A DNA stretch of 64,000 bases, from the NCBI RefSeq assembly GCF_002269385.1, contig NZ_CP022957.1, positions 4,575,958-4,639,957 on the forward strand, written 5' to 3'. Below are positions 20,674 through 26,905 of this stretch, piece after piece (the stretch's first letter is position 1; every line of letters starts with the position of its first letter). The translations under genes and the position numbers were made by a program. A model generated the notes under the pieces. The model worked only from the letters and a program-made list of their open reading frames with translations, was not told where the DNA came from and searched no databases. The DNA is from Maribacter cobaltidurans (GTDB lineage Bacteria > Bacteroidota > Bacteroidia > Flavobacteriales > Flavobacteriaceae).

Positions 20674-22760
20674 GGTAATTCTATTTTGGTTTTTAAATAA
20701 CGTAAATCCGATGGTTTTAGTTGCATGGCTACAGAGACAATCTGTTGTTTTAGGTCTTCGTTCTTAAGCATTTCGTCTAGTAAATTTCTTACAAACATTC
20801 TGAATTGCCAAGAATGATGATCCGTTGCCAAAATCAATTGCCTTAAAACTTCCCCATTGACAGCGTTTATTTGATATAGATATTGAAAGGCACTTTGCCT
20901 GATTTCCGGATTATAGATTTTTCGGGTATAAGAAATCAATTCTTCCAGATAACTTGCCTTCTCAGTCGTTTTATAGTCAGGAGTCACCAAAGCCAAAGTC
21001 AGCCACAGAAGACGGACATTTTTATTGGGTAGGCCAACTACATCTTCAAGTTTATTCAAATACCCAACCCGACTTTCGGGAAAAGCCTCCCATAATTTAA
21101 AAAGGGTATATTCTTGGGTAACGTAACTTTTATCCTGCAAAAACGACTCAAAATACGTTTTAAACTCCGGCTTAACTTGTGGTATGGATATGGCCAAAGC
21201 CTGTCTCACTTCCAGAGAAAGTTCATTTTGAAAAATTCTTTGAAGCGTTGAATTCTGAATTTGGCTATGGTATTCAGAAATTAAATGCGTTTTAAAAGGT
21301 TTTGGGGTCTCCCGGTTCCACAACCACATTAATTTTTCATCGTCCAAAGCCGTTGACCAATCCAACTGATCTTGTAAAAAAAAGTAGTTTTTCAGACTTT
21401 CATTTTTCCTTGCCAAATATGTCTTTGCGTCGTCCCAAGGAAATTCGGTCGAAATCAACCATCTAGATTTATAATCATCCAAATTCTGATGAGATGCCTC
21501 TTCCATCTCTTTTAAAAAATCATCCACGGTTACATTTTTATAGGCATACTTTTCTAGGTAGGATTTGATTCCTTTTTTAAAAGCTTCCTCCCCTACTTTC
21601 TCCCTCAATATCACCAAGGCCCATGCTCCCTTTTCATAAAAAGTAAGGCTACTTGCTTTGGGATCCAATAGACTTTCTCCCTTTTCCTCTTGGGACATTT
21701 TGTACAGTTGTCTGGCCGTATCATACAATTTCCAATAAAAATGATCTTCGCCAAAAATATTCTTTTCGGCCAAGTAGGCATAATACGTAGCAAAACCCTC
21801 ATGCAACCAATGGTGGTTACCATCCTTTTCGGTAACCAGGTTTCCAAACCATTGGTGGGCCATTTCATGGGCATTGATATTAACATAATTACGATCGATA
21901 AATGCCGTGGAATCTATGACATAAGCATCGGAAAAAATAGTAGCGCCCGTATTTTCCATTCCCGCATAGAGAAAATCATGAACCGGAATTTGTTTGTAAT
22001 TCTGCCAAGGGTAGTCAACGCCAATTTCCTCCTCAAAGAAATCAAAAATCTTCTTGGTATATCGGTAGGTGGGTTCAACCTTTAAACTATCCTTCGGATA
22101 GAAATAATTATCGATAGGTACACCGCTTTCAGATTTCAACTCCTGTTTGTCATATTTTCCAATGGCAAAGGCCAATAAATAGCTGCTCATGGGATTTTCC
22201 ATAGAAAAGGAATAAACTGGATTTTTTACCGGTCCTTGAGTATACGAATTAAATTTGCCATTGGTGACCACTCGAAAGGGGAAGTCTACTTGTATATTCA
22301 TATTAAAAACAACCTTCTCCTCCATATCATCAAAACTGGGTAACCAATGACTGGTATATTTACCCTGTCCTTGGGTCCAGACTTGGTCGTTGTCGGGATT
22401 GTCGTCATCAAGTCCTATAAAATAAACCGTCTGTTTAGGTGTGCATGAATATTGGATAAACAGCTTGTGGTCAACTCCCTTTTTAAACTTATTTTTAATC
22501 ACCAATCTTTTATCATCGTAATTCCATTTAACTCTTTTATCGTCTAATCTCACTTTTTCAAAATCCATATTTTTGGCATCCAGCCAAACGGAATCTACAT
22601 TTTGAAGAATGTGAAAGTCATAAAAGACCTTTCCTGAAATGGTTTCTTCGGACAGGTCAGGAGTGATTACTACCGTCGCCTTTATAAAATCTACCTTGTC
22701 CTGATGCTGGGAAAAAGCGGACAGACCAAGGAACATAAATAAAAACCAAACCCGATTCAT
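20670..22760 (-). CDS. M1 family aminopeptidase, exported
   Basis: Zinc aminopeptidase. The start at 22760 gives the signal peptide MNRVWFLFMFLGLSAFSQ; the frame also holds an ATG at 22766 and a TTG at 22772. The zinc site is HEMAHQWFGN (~295) with the third ligand Glu in HEGFATYY about 19 residues on; the exopeptidase motif reads AGMENTGA. The M1 N-terminal beta domain covers ~20-210 and helical repeats fill the C-terminus. The 696 residues are typical. Upstream and coupled to the patatin gene. Confidence 0.92.
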   Translation of the reverse strand: MNRVWFLFMFLGLSAFSQHQDKVDFIKATVVITPDLSEETISGKVFYDFHILQNVDSVWLDAKNMDFEKVRLDDKRVKWNYDDKRLVIKNKFKKGVDHKLFIQYSCTPKQTVYFIGLDDDNPDNDQVWTQGQGKYTSHWLPSFDDMEEKVVFNMNIQVDFPFRVVTNGKFNSYTQGPVKNPVYSFSMENPMSSYLLAFAIGKYDKQELKSESGVPIDNYFYPKDSLKVEPTYRYTKKIFDFFEEEIGVDYPWQNYKQIPVHDFLYAGMENTGATIFSDAYVIDSTAFIDRNYVNINAHEMAHQWFGNLVTEKDGNHHWLHEGFATYYAYLAEKNIFGEDHFYWKLYDTARQLYKMSQEEKGESLLDPKASSLTFYEKGAWALVILREKVGEEAFKKGIKSYLEKYAYKNVTVDDFLKEMEEASHQNLDDYKSRWLISTEFPWDDAKTYLARKNESLKNYFFLQDQLDWSTALDDEKLMWLWNRETPKPFKTHLISEYHSQIQNSTLQRIFQNELSLEVRQALAISIPQVKPEFKTYFESFLQDKSYVTQEYTLFKLWEAFPESRVGYLNKLEDVVGLPNKNVRLLWLTLALVTPDYKTTEKASYLEELISYTRKIYNPEIRQSAFQYLYQINAVNGEVLRQLILATDHHSWQFRMFVRNLLDEMLKNEDLKQQIVSVAMQLKPSDLRYLKTKIELP

Positions 22761-22806
22761 AACCATAAACAATTAATTCTTGGACCAAAATAAGGCTTTT
22801 CCTGTA

Positions 22807-22837
22807 TTGCAGTTACAGATGGTAAGCCCTAATTTAG
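22807..22837 (+). promoter_or_regulatory. Possible recG promoter close to the start codon
   Basis: TTG (22807-22809), 20 bases, TAATTTAG (22830-22837; one mismatch to TAnnTTTG). Transcription would begin at about 22842-22844, essentially at the ATG, so the mRNA may be leaderless. Confidence 0.4.
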
Positions 22838-22841
22838 TCGG

Positions 22842-25382
22842 ATGAATGCCGGATTCCTTCAAACGCCCATTGTGTATCTTAAAGGTGTAGGCCCCAACAG
22901 GGCGGAAACCTTACAGTCCGAATTAAGTATTCAGGTTTACCAAGATTTATTGAACCTCTTTCCCAATAGATATATAGACAAGACCCAGTATTACAAAATA
23001 GGCCAACTCCAAAAAAGTAATGCGGAGGTTCAGATTGTGGGAAAAATTGTCCATATCAAAACGGTAGAGCAAAAACGGGGCAAAAGATTGGTAGCCAAAT
23101 TCGTAGACGATACGGGCGAAATAGAGCTGGTTTGGTTCCGGGGGCAAAAATGGATCAGGGAAAATCTAAAGCTGAATACACCATATGTGATTTTTGGCAA
23201 GTGCAACTGGTTCAACGGCATGTTTTCTATGCCTCATCCGGAGATGGAGCTTCTTTCAGAACACGAAAAGAGTCTTAGAATTCACATGCAACCGGTATAT
23301 CCTTCAACCGAAAAATTAAGCAATAAGGGCATTACCAATCGTGTGTTGGGCAAACTGGTACAGCAGCTTTTTGTGGAAACAAAGGGAAAATTTTCAGAAA
23401 CCTTATCCGATAAAATTTTATATGAATTAAAACTGATTCCGAAGAGCGAGGCACTTTTTAATATTCATTTTCCAAAAAATCAAGAATTATTGGCAAAAGC
23501 CCAATTCCGGTTGAAATTCGAGGAGCTTTTTTACCTGCAACTACAACTGATTGCCAAAAACATGCTCCACAAGCAGAAAATCAAAGGATTCAACTTTGAT
23601 CAAGTAGGAACCTTGTTCAATGATTTTTATGCCAATCATTTGCCTTTTGAACTCACTGATGCCCAGAAAAGGGTCATCCGAGAAATAAGGGCCGATTTAG
23701 GTAGCAATGCCCAAATGAACCGATTATTACAGGGCGATGTAGGTTCTGGAAAAACCATTGTAGCGGTTATGACCATGTTGTTGGCCATAGATAATGGTTT
23801 TCAAGCGTGCTTGGTAGCTCCTACGGAAATCCTGGCCAATCAACATTACAACGGAATCAAGGAATTGTTAGCAGGAACCGCAGTAACCTGCAAGCTTTTG
23901 ACCGGCTCGGTCAAGAAATCCGTCCGAAAACCTATCCATGAACAACTGGAAAATGGAGAGCTCCATATTCTTATCGGGACCCATGCCGTGCTGGAGGATA
24001 AAGTAGTATTCAAAAACCTAGGTTTGGCGATAATTGATGAACAGCATCGATTTGGTGTAGCGCAACGTTCCAAGTTGTGGCATAAGGGAAGCCCACCCCT
24101 AACCCCTCCCAAAGGGAGGGTGAATGAAATCCATGCTCAATATCAAACCGCCAGACCTTCAACTTATAATTTGTTGAAGGAACTACAAAAAGACAGAAAA
24201 AAACATACCACGGAAGCCGAGCAAATTCTATGGGAGTCATTAAAAACAAAGAAACTAGGCGATAAGTTTAGAAGACAACATATCATAGATATGTTCATTG
24301 TAGACTTTGTTTGTATTTCCAAAAAGTTAGTTATTGAAGTTGACGGAAAATACCATGATGATGCGTCCGAGCAGGAAGCCGATACAATGAGGGCCCAAAT
24401 TCTCAATGATTTTGGATATAAGGTAATACGATTTACAAATGAAGAAGTAATCGGGAATATCGACTCGGTGATATCTAAAATTGGGACAGTTCTGGAAAGC
24501 CTCCCCTCCGGGGAGGTCGGAGGGGCTCCCCCACCCCATATTCTAGTCATGACGGCAACCCCCATTCCACGAACCCTGGCCATGAGCCTTTACGGGGATT
24601 TGGATATTTCGGTCATTGATGAATTGCCGCCGGGAAGAAAACCCGTAAAAACGGTACACCGATATGATTCTAACCGTTTAAAAGTGTTCCAGTTCATTAG
24701 GGATGAAATTGGAAAAGGACGACAAGTGTATGTCGTCTATCCTTTAATTCAAGAATCCGAAGCATTGGATTATAAGGACTTGATGGATGGGTATGAGAGT
24801 ATTGTTCGTGATTTTCCACAACCCGATTATCAAATTTCCATAGTCCATGGGCAAATGAAACCTGAGGATAAGGATTACGAAATGGAGCGCTTTGTAAAAG
24901 GAGAAACCCAAATTATGGTCGCTACCACGGTGATTGAAGTCGGCGTAAATGTTCCCAATGCCTCGGTCATGATTATAGAAAGCGCAGAACGGTTTGGGCT
25001 TTCGCAGCTGCATCAATTACGTGGTAGAGTGGGTAGAGGAGCCGACCAAAGTTTTTGTATTCTAATGACGAGCTACAAGCTAAGCTCCGAAGCCAAAACC
25101 CGATTGGAAACGATGGTACAAACCAATGATGGGTTTGAGATTGCTGAAGTGGATTTAAAACTCCGTGGCCCTGGAGATATCATGGGAACCCAACAAAGTG
25201 GTATGTTAAACTTAAAAATTGCAGATATTGTAAAGGATAATTCTATTTTAAAGTCCGCCAGATATTATGCCATGCAGCTATTAAAGGACGACCCTTCCTT
25301 AGAAAAACCGGAGAATCTTGTAATTAGGCATTTTTACGCACAACTGGTCAAATTTAAAAATATCTGGAACTATATTAGTTGA
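22842..25382 (+). CDS. recG: ATP-dependent DNA helicase RecG with in-frame DUF559 nuclease insertion
   Basis: Branch-migration helicase that remodels stalled forks and Holliday junctions. The wedge/OB domain fills about 1-270. Motor motifs are Walker A GDVGSGKT (~299), IIDEQHRFGVAQRSKLW (~398), MTATPIPRTLAM (~570), VIEVGVNVPNASVM, QLHQLRGRVGRG and the RecG end DIMGTQQSG. RecG is normally about 700 residues; this one has 846. The extra 146 lie between DEQH (motif II) and TATP (motif III), a surface loop, and encode a whole DUF559 domain. Taking out 24092-24529 gives KLWHKGSPPHILVMTATP, the normal RecG sequence. Whether the enlarged protein is active or is processed cannot be told from sequence. 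Confidence 0.93.
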   Translation: MNAGFLQTPIVYLKGVGPNRAETLQSELSIQVYQDLLNLFPNRYIDKTQYYKIGQLQKSNAEVQIVGKIVHIKTVEQKRGKRLVAKFVDDTGEIELVWFRGQKWIRENLKLNTPYVIFGKCNWFNGMFSMPHPEMELLSEHEKSLRIHMQPVYPSTEKLSNKGITNRVLGKLVQQLFVETKGKFSETLSDKILYELKLIPKSEALFNIHFPKNQELLAKAQFRLKFEELFYLQLQLIAKNMLHKQKIKGFNFDQVGTLFNDFYANHLPFELTDAQKRVIREIRADLGSNAQMNRLLQGDVGSGKTIVAVMTMLLAIDNGFQACLVAPTEILANQHYNGIKELLAGTAVTCKLLTGSVKKSVRKPIHEQLENGELHILIGTHAVLEDKVVFKNLGLAIIDEQHRFGVAQRSKLWHKGSPPLTPPKGRVNEIHAQYQTARPSTYNLLKELQKDRKKHTTEAEQILWESLKTKKLGDKFRRQHIIDMFIVDFVCISKKLVIEVDGKYHDDASEQEADTMRAQILNDFGYKVIRFTNEEVIGNIDSVISKIGTVLESLPSGEVGGAPPPHILVMTATPIPRTLAMSLYGDLDISVIDELPPGRKPVKTVHRYDSNRLKVFQFIRDEIGKGRQVYVVYPLIQESEALDYKDLMDGYESIVRDFPQPDYQISIVHGQMKPEDKDYEMERFVKGETQIMVATTVIEVGVNVPNASVMIIESAERFGLSQLHQLRGRVGRGADQSFCILMTSYKLSSEAKTRLETMVQTNDGFEIAEVDLKLRGPGDIMGTQQSGMLNLKIADIVKDNSILKSARYYAMQLLKDDPSLEKPENLVIRHFYAQLVKFKNIWNYIS
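24092..24529 (+). mobile_element. 438-bp in-frame element carrying a DUF559 endonuclease domain
   Basis: The 8-bp direct repeat CCCACCCC (24092-24099 and 24530-24537) brackets 438 bases, exactly 146 codons with no stop. Both ends are GC-rich hairpins unlike the surrounding AT-rich DNA: CCCTCCC-AAA-GGGAGGG (24104-24120) and CCTCCCC-TCC-GGGGAGG (24500-24516). The interior encodes a VSR-like PD-(D/E)XK domain with its key residues: TEAEQILWESL, KFRRQHIIDMFIVDFVC, KLVIEVDGKYHD and GYKVIRFTNEEV. It may also be translated alone from GTG at 24120, after GGGAGG. It resembles the DUF559 genes flanked by GC-rich hairpins seen in Bacteroidota genomes (from memory). No transposase is encoded. Confidence 0.8.
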
Positions 25383-25460
25383 TTGTCATTTTTAACAGAT
25401 TCAAGTTTTGAACATCGTAATTTAAACACGTGCTCGTTTCTTAAAAATCCTTGTTTTTAA

Positions 25461-25468
25461 TACTTTTA
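25461..25468 (+). promoter_or_regulatory. Candidate -7 element for the leu operon
   Basis: TACTTTTA (7 of 8 to TAnnTTTG), 22 bases before the leuC ATG. No TTG at the expected distance. No leader peptide or terminator hairpin was found in the 107 bases before leuC. Confidence 0.4.
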
Positions 25469-25489
25469 CATTCTTACATTATAAAGATT

Positions 25490-26905
25490 ATGAGCGCAAC
25501 AAAAACGTTATTTGATAAGGTGTGGGATTCCCACGTAGTACATAAAATTGAGAATGGTCCGGATGTCCTGTTCATCGACCGTCATATGATTCATGAAGTA
25601 ACGAGCCCTGTAGCCTTTTTAGGCCTAAAAAATAGGGGTATCGGTGTTTTATATAATGAAAGAACTTTTGCAACAGCGGATCACAATACCCCAACAATCA
25701 ACCAGCATCTTCCTGTAGAAGACCCTCTTTCTGCCAATCAATTAAAAATGTTGGAGGAAAATGCCAATGAACACGGTATTTCCTATTGGGGATTGGGCCA
25801 TGAAAAAAATGGAATTGTTCACGTTGTTGGACCGGAATACGGAATTACACAACCCGGAGCCACCATTGTTTGTGGAGATTCACATACATCTACCCATGGG
25901 GCCTTTGGCGCTATTGCCTTTGGTATTGGCACATCTGAGGTGGAGATGGTTTTGGCCACCCAGTGTATCATGCAGCCCAAACCGAAAAGAATGCGTATCA
26001 ATATAAACGGTGAACTTAGTAGAGGGGTGACTCCAAAAGATGTCGCATTGTTTATAATTAGTCAATTAACGACCTCAGGAGCCACTGGTTATTTTGTGGA
26101 ATATGCAGGGGATATCTTCCGAAATATGAGTATGGAAGGAAGAATGACCGTGTGTAACCTTAGTATAGAAATGGGTGCACGTGGTGGTATGATTGCTCCG
26201 GATGAAAAAACTTTTGAATACATAAAAGGACGCGAATTTACTCCTACAGGCGATGATTGGGATAAGGCAATGGCCTACTGGGAAACCCTTTACACGGATA
26301 AAGATGCCATCTTTGACAAGGAATTGACCTTTGATGGGGCACTGATAGAACCAATGATAACCTATGGAACCAATCCAGGTATGGGAATGGGAATCTCAAA
26401 AGACATTCCATTGGCCACGGCTACCCAAGGTGGAGCCAGCAGCTATAAAAAGTCATTGGAATACATGAATTTCAATGAAGGCGAAAGTATGATGGGAAAA
26501 ACCATCGATTATGTTTTCCTTGGAAGCTGTACCAATGGGCGAATTGAGGATTTTAGGGCTTTCACTTCTTTGGTCAAGGGTAGAAAAAAAGCGGATAATG
26601 TCACCGCTTGGTTGGTTCCAGGATCTCATAAGGTAGAAGCTGCAATTAAGGAAGAAGGACTATTGGACATCCTAACAGAATCCGGATTTGAACTGAGAGA
26701 ACCTGGATGTTCTGCATGTTTGGCAATGAACGAGGATAAAATTCCTGCAGGAAAATTGGCCGTGAGTACCTCCAACAGGAATTTTGAAGGTAGACAAGGC
26801 CCAGGGGCCAGAACCATTCTTGCAAGTCCGCTGGTAGCAGCAGCAGCAGCGGTTACTGGAAAAGTAACCGATCCAAGAGAACTTATGGAATTGGAAACCG
26901 CTTAA
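25490..26905 (+). CDS. leuC: 3-isopropylmalate dehydratase large subunit
   Basis: Aconitase-family enzyme that, with LeuD, isomerises 2- to 3-isopropylmalate in leucine synthesis. The start at 25490 ([17 protein letters not shown]) matches the family; the frame is open 39 bases further upstream. The 4Fe-4S cysteines lie in GSCTNG (~346) and [10 protein letters not shown] (~407-410); [20 protein letters not shown] is the substrate region. 471 residues, normal. First gene of leuC-leuD-leuA-leuB; the gap to leuD is 28 bases. Confidence 0.97.

Follow-up and report, generated by a model that had tools for sequence, protein, structure and literature searches.

A hairpin-bounded DUF559 nuclease insert in the recG frame of Maribacter cobaltidurans as a candidate homing element without splicing

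Inteins are mobile elements that are wholly protein-coding, lie in frame in conserved genes, spread horizontally and often carry a nuclease. An insert with these same traits occupies recG, the gene for the ATP-dependent DNA helicase RecG, in a 64,000-nucleotide stretch of the Maribacter cobaltidurans genome (NZ_CP022957.1, positions 4,575,958 to 4,639,957 of the forward strand; hereafter the window, in whose own numbering coordinates are given). Unlike an intein, the insert has no splicing domain and is apparently kept in the mature protein. A conserved gene is held to tolerate a mobile nuclease only through splicing or when the nuclease lies beside the gene; this insert appears to manage without either, and it still moves from species to species, entering a repair helicase at the same codon. 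In its accessible text, PMC7282813 treats inteins and intron-encoded nucleases as recognized homing classes and the splicing-free WHO elements of yeast as a third. The WHO elements resemble the insert in homing without splicing, in leaving the host gene functional and in reaching new loci via transposition, yet they lie beside FBA1, are separately transcribed and replace the FBA1 3' end (PMC7282813, accessible text), whereas the insert sits inside the frame and is translated with its host. I-Bth0305I, a phage enzyme of the EDxHD family, is intron-encoded according to the available part of PMC3943268, where these enzymes are described; the recG insert is without a splicing element. The palindromic elements of Rickettsia and the repetitive extragenic palindromic (REP) sequences found within genes also place palindromic DNA in frame in unrelated genes, where it is translated. 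As far as the available portions of PMC10969869 and PMC3733652 go, however, they are about 150 bp or shorter, no nuclease is mentioned and the CGTC repeats are said to lack a dedicated transposase; in recG, a nuclease lies between the palindromes. The Vsr proteins and the free-standing members of DUF559, among them 3hrl and the VsrA of Caulobacter, are separate polypeptides and are not embedded in other proteins; the accessible part of PMC12907096 discusses VsrA as a mismatch-repair endonuclease. No earlier description of such elements was found in the open-licence literature, outside which most subscription papers lie, and the open-licence literature naming DUF559 held nothing suggesting such inserts.

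The recG gene of the window is a single open frame of 846 codons (22842-25382, + strand; open reading frame analysis, Pfam and NCBIfam), the insert included. Pfam matched nine families in the whole protein, comprising RecG domains and the DUF559 nuclease domain (PF04480) at residues 449-551 (24186-24494, + strand; E 3e-31), the latter with 107.9 bits against a cut-off of 20.6. The insert lies between DEQH (residues 399-402; 24036-24047, + strand) and TATP (residues 571-574; 24552-24563, + strand), just 3' of the insertion point, which we take to be helicase motifs II and III. A preliminary description, made from the sequence alone, had recognized this stop-free insertion and a GC-rich hairpin at each of its ends, and the hairpins are indeed present at 24104-24120 and 24500-24516. 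It had also set the bounds at 24092-24529; the length of 438 bp stands, and the ends move two bases to the left, to 24090-24527 (+ strand). These ends were set from the metH gene of genome G630, which carries two related copies at two places: the common sequence starts with AGCC and stops with GGCT in both, with 345 of 418 bases identical (82.5%). Empty recG relatives were also used to delimit the element. Its inverted ends are about 30 bp each, the left one (24090-24120, + strand) containing the hairpin CCCTCCCAAAGGGAGGG (arms CCCTCCC and GGGAGGG around AAA) and the right one (24498-24527, - strand) the hairpin CCTCCCCTCCGGGGAGG (arms CCTCCCC and GGGGAGG around TCC). Ahead of the nuclease domain, the stretch YQTARPSTYNLLKEL (24141-24185, + strand) is common to the RecG inserts read and has a similar counterpart in the copies within isoleucyl-tRNA synthetase (IleRS).

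The nuclease domain has kept residues of the active-site type. D, E, D, H and R were retained in 75 of 75 embedded domains and a further E in 73 of them, and the corresponding residues of the window (D488, E499, D501 and H505) were invariant in 14 RecG inserts. By homology, D, E, D and H would be catalytic, and the active-site-type residues of the insert are under purifying selection. The nearest solved relatives of this Vsr/EDxHD-like domain, which has a Vsr-like fold, include the homing endonuclease I-Bth0305I. PADLOC returned weak partial matches, among them a homing endonuclease model and a methyl-directed restriction enzyme (both E 1e-5), which we did not use as proof. RecG itself is predicted to work despite the insert, given its conserved motifs and low nonsynonymous divergence (dN), and is probably single copy: a search with an empty RecG query gave three matches in this genome versus two in most relatives of the family sample, two of which would correspond to recG on either side of the insert and the third to a paralogue, for example Mfd. 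Structure prediction, proposed earlier for the loop, succeeded in part. Fair confidence was reached for the insert, with block means of 61-86 over approximately residues 431-550, and for some of the first helicase lobe, while the mean predicted local distance difference test (pLDDT) score of the whole protein, from a shallow alignment, was 57.5, too poor for domain placement.

Patchy occupancy and horizontal movement

The recG site is occupied in a minority of the genomes sampled. In the genus of the window, 35 of 36 genomes had a RecG match, and the 30 loci read (one per genome) comprised five occupied sites, one of them cut by a contig end, 23 empty sites and two scarred ones. The empty site reads HK-NEF-PPHILVMTATP or near variants (KNxxPPH); the scars (genomes G002 and G008) read HKGSPRNGEVGGATPPH and HKSPNDGEVGGATPPH and retain the element tips with the nuclease gone and the frame kept. 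Across the family sample, RecG was split by an insert in 9 of 298 genomes with a match, counted as rows with three matches and in agreement with nine RecG-size frames of 848-865 amino acids. A second genus had at least 16 carriers among 384 genomes with a match (two at contig ends), and all 14 of the remaining loci read there were empty. Three more genera each had one occupied and one empty species in the sample. RecG inserts stand at one codon boundary in many genera, with empty alleles in relatives. On a tree of the host RecG (96 rows), the insert needs at least nine changes, seven of them forced by well-supported branches, and 80 of the 82 rows without a full insert are scar-free. The empty site that the preliminary description had suggested seeking in close relatives is present, and the vertical descent that it had named as grounds for abandoning mobility, with the insert in all relatives, does not hold.

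Comparison of inserts with their host genes confirmed, at the level of sequence, that the insert moves horizontally to the one recG site independently of the host gene. Inserts in the Maribacter records L336 (M. arenosus), L338 and L339 (the last two metagenome-assembled) differed by 3.8-5.6%; equal-size windows of recG differed by at least 14.7-19.6% (0 of 84-86 as low), and divergence reached 17-23% within the first 30 bases beyond the junctions. By this measure, the Maribacter exchange is limited to the insert. The pairs among G119, G769 and G324 had an insert synonymous divergence (dS) of 0.02 versus 0.26-0.39 for the host, and none of 140 windows over recG and 1.5 kb on each side was as low in each of the three. 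Five further pairs (L381/L391, L390/L392, L326/L334, L328/L332 and L327/L329) had no window as low as the insert among 81-88. The window genome and G023 had an insert dS of 0.11 versus 0.46 for the host (2 of 123 windows as low), and the 90 bases 5' of the insert were identical before divergence rose to 14.5%, as expected if a short tract had been copied along with the insert. A 30-base identical tract lies on the 5' side of the insert in L326/L334. More broadly, 87 of 91 pairs of the second genus, which are non-independent, had a lower dS in the insert than in the host, and so did 17 of the 22 disjoint close pairs overall, with a median ratio of 0.55 (two-sided p 0.017). In the insert phylogeny, G001 pairs with G672, a genome of another genus (support 99/94), whereas the host RecG keeps the genus together (100/98), and an approximately unbiased (AU) test on the host RecG rejects the G001 and G672 pair (p 0.006). 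Although several of the loci are metagenomic, it is unlikely that assembly chimaeras would fall precisely at the ends of the element in several independent records.

Hairpin ends, junctions and relatives in other genes

Hairpins at the ends of 75 embedded copies were above chance (p 2e-28 left, 1e-22 right) relative to 404 control windows from the same genes. With the control 95th percentile as the threshold, the left end exceeded it in 52 copies, the right in 36 and both in 31; by this percentile measure, more than half of the copies miss a clear hairpin at one end. Among copies with a clear hairpin at each end (50 of 75), the left and right arms of one copy were more alike than the arms of other copies (likeness of 0.548 vs 0.375 within the same host gene, with 0 of 10000 permutations as high). 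It follows that the two ends travel or co-evolve together. Further copies of the end hairpins, which the preliminary description had suggested seeking in the same genome, were not recovered: pattern searches for a second exact copy found none in this genome, and at up to two mismatches the left hairpin had six forward matches, itself included, versus four in a reversed control. The genome does carry three other DUF559/Vsr-like genes, two of them in hairpin-flanked intergenic settings.

The junctions have losses of host sequence and no duplication of the target. The 8-mer CCCACCCC stands at both edges of the insert, as previously reported, and had been taken for a target duplication, a candidate we rejected. 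Of the 28 distinct RecG inserts, which make up 30 rows because two genomes were entered twice, only 2 have it at both edges, those of this genome and of its 97%-identical relative G023. Its right copy matches host codons for PPH, also present in empty relatives, and the left copy we take to be the end of the element itself. The insert of L111 has a different 8-mer common to both edges. Set against empty recG sites, the inserts are without any target duplication of at least 3 bp. Junctions of the second genus, for example AAA/GCCTCCCC...GGGGC/TACTATTCC versus the empty AAAAATGCAATTCC, have lost about two bases, with no duplicated target, and the insertion in IleRS replaced about 10 host residues.

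Relatives of the insert are widespread in other genes. A DUF559 match was found in 222 of 395 genomes sampled from the phylum, many of them, among the matches listed, in frames of 800-1480 codons. Copies lie in frame inside leucyl-tRNA synthetase (LeuRS, two sites), MetH, HsdR, HsdM, type ISP and Eco57I-type enzymes, two UvrD-like helicases and one methylmalonyl-CoA mutase, and at or near the ends of HemF, HisA/HisF-type proteins, HisD, an N-formylglutamate amidohydrolase, a GATase_5 protein, an M23 peptidase and a DNA methylase. In a tree of the domain, built from 91 rows with few columns and having 11 starred branches, copies from one host gene mostly fall together (22 changes against a shuffled mean of 63.8); the 13 RecG rows form one group, and the MetH copies of four bacterial families fall together with one other copy. 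Among the best 80 of 417 named relatives of the RecG insert, 76 are in RecG, three in IleRS, all at one place, and one in valyl-tRNA synthetase (ValRS). These synthetase hosts were assigned by Pfam and, for isoleucine (L292) and valine (L397), by NCBIfam, with L369, L386 and L398 taken as the isoleucine type by their likeness to L292. Genome G662 holds a RecG-type nuclease in RecG and another, 60% identical, in IleRS. This distribution indicates a strong host preference, yet new sites have been founded. The insertion sites stood beside the most conserved motifs in all four genes tested; random positions equal this in 7-24% of cases, and the Fisher combination, calculated by hand, is about 0.06, which is suggestive only.

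Several of these hosts have particular arrangements. The metH frame of G630 (L291) has two related DUF559 inserts at two sites. The ValRS insert (L397:2820-5966), a nuclease of the RecG type, lies directly before ATTRPETI, in what seems to correspond to the LeuRS site that precedes FTTRPDTI. In HsdR, DUF559 occupies one site in L046/L102 (G048 hsdR) and another in L103/L105, and the L102 insert is 77% identical to that of L103, the HsdR hosts being 55% identical.

Homing without splicing and competing explanations

We regard the insert as probably a selfish element of the homing type that dispenses with splicing and is kept as a loop of its host protein. The nuclease, released or as part of the RecG fusion, would cut an empty recG close to the conserved region of motif III; an occupied allele would then serve as the repair template, so that the element is copied in, at times with a short flank. 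Double-strand cutting of empty alleles with repair from occupied ones is what the patterns described above suggest. The hairpin ends, rich in proline and glycine when read through, would serve as linkers, and the nuclease would fold separately in a tolerant loop. The element could survive in a protein gene because its ends act as linkers and the nuclease is a separate domain, so that RecG still works. Rare ectopic repair would found new sites, as in IleRS, ValRS and the second site of metH. The preliminary proposal of a mobile unit living as a translated insertion without splicing motifs agrees with the relatives and with the Pfam and Rfam searches.

Several results weigh against this reading. 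In the comparison with I-Bth0305I, the aligned 3r3p chain keeps only the E of the four residues (D to A, D to N, H to W); the active sites need not be equivalent, although the chain could be a mutant. The domain, of about 110 residues, is without the extra DNA-binding modules of the phage EDxHD enzymes (PMC3943268, available part). Insert dS exceeded host dS in 5 of the 22 disjoint close pairs, and some pairs had host windows as low as the insert (L263/L264, 15 of 140; L260/L261, 2 of 140; L259/L260, 14 of 140; L266/L267, 7 of 133; L349/L372, 19 of 80). The insert is also poorer than the host in GC at third codon positions; moderate dS deficits alone are for this reason weak, and the case rests on the extreme pairs. 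An AU test on the inserts does not reject monophyly of the own genus (p 0.18). Flank co-conversion was absent to within 30 bp in the Maribacter trio, whereas other pairs have the 5' tracts. Close-pair synonymous divergence in other host genes is mostly saturated; there, insert dS was the lower in 99 of 135 pairs for LeuRS site 1, 57 of 77 for MetH, 5 of 10 for HsdR and 3 of 6 for HemF, pairs that are non-independent.

The most serious rival, though in our judgment rather unlikely, is target-specific transposition, in which an enzyme, either the nuclease itself or one from the host, would act on the hairpin-bearing inverted ends, excise or copy the element and join it to a preferred site, much as REP/IS200-like systems handle hairpin ends. 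The sharp Maribacter exchange points at the element ends and the paired hairpins leave room for it; likeness of the arms within copies, retention of the ends by ectopic copies and the hairpin-flanked intergenic copies also speak in its favor. It sits poorly, however, with host losses at junctions that have no target duplication, a single fixed recG site across many genera, ends that are single copy in this genome and a homing endonuclease among the nearest solved relatives. No HUH tyrosine transposase (REP-associated, RAYT) lay between the hairpins among the Pfam matches of the insert, which comprised DUF559 and a restriction-endonuclease family below its cut-off. Homing is favored because of the 5' copied tracts, the lack of duplication and the homing-endonuclease relative. 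Still less probable is a useful accessory nuclease domain of RecG, spread by ordinary recG recombination and kept for host benefit. The conserved active-site-type residues under purifying selection suit such a role, as does the DNA-processing function of several other hosts (HsdR, HsdM, UvrD-like), but a domain this rare (9 of 298; at least 16 among 384) and scarred in two genomes, whose relatives also reside in LeuRS, IleRS, MetH, HemF and HisD with no evident use for a nuclease and whose Maribacter exchange is confined to the insert, does not look like a host asset.

We give very little credence to an old domain insertion inherited vertically with many losses. The grouping of the nucleases largely into one clade per host gene is what it would predict, the 13 RecG rows included, but so many scar-free insert-less RecG rows would demand that losses restored the site cleanly, and inserts far less diverged than their flanks in several independent pairs contradict it unless the assemblies are chimaeras. 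An undetected intein or self-splicing intron is just as implausible. It would share the lifestyle of the insert (in frame, in a conserved host gene, patchy and nuclease-bearing), yet Pfam found no splicing domain in the whole protein, NCBIfam found only DUF559 in the insert alone, the frame is open in the inserts read, and DUF559 and short linkers fill the insert. Rfam detected no intron family over 22700-25500 at E 0.1; a match to a Yersinia small RNA (22.9 bits, cut-off 196) fell outside the insert and was dismissed.

We propose more tentatively that these inserts add a structural class of homing element to inteins, intron-borne nucleases and WHO elements, namely a nuclease cassette, bounded by hairpins and never removed, that homes to fixed sites in housekeeping genes. 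Such a cassette would persist as a permanent loop translated with RecG, aminoacyl-tRNA synthetases, methionine synthase and other hosts, and its hairpins would double as DNA ends and stop-free linkers. If so, palindromic coding elements without a nuclease could be deletion derivatives, like the recG scars. The proposal would give DUF559, named for its unknown function, a role that can be tested, and it would account for nuclease domains inside tRNA synthetases and methionine synthases. How palindromic sequence enters protein-coding genes is a question posed by the Rickettsia elements, and the proposal would offer a route. Such inserts would also be natural markers of exchange between species.

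Free-standing DUF559 genes and coding repeats

Two intergenic DUF559 genes of the M. cobaltidurans genome (G000) lie amid repeats. One (L002:1424-2190; genome positions 2976900-2980211) stands between copies of a hairpin repeat unit of more than 100 bp (CCCCTCTTTTCCAAAGAGGGGTGATTCGGC...), a REP-like family beside a nuclease gene. The other (L004:1380-1875) has the inverted hairpin ends CCCCCCTTGAGGGGGG... and ...CCCCTCAAGGGG. Elsewhere, four near-identical free DUF559 genes of one family (f18; L040, L045, L051 and L052) occur amid hairpin repeats of the CCCCC...GGGGG type. Finally, a loop of LeuRS near residues 295-325 (L199-L225) takes in-frame palindromic or tandem repeats unrelated to DUF559, such as NVIASEAKQSH in L224, MLKHVQHDISERHSELVSES in L223 and tandem EFRIQNS in L200, and is thus a hotspot of coding repeats.
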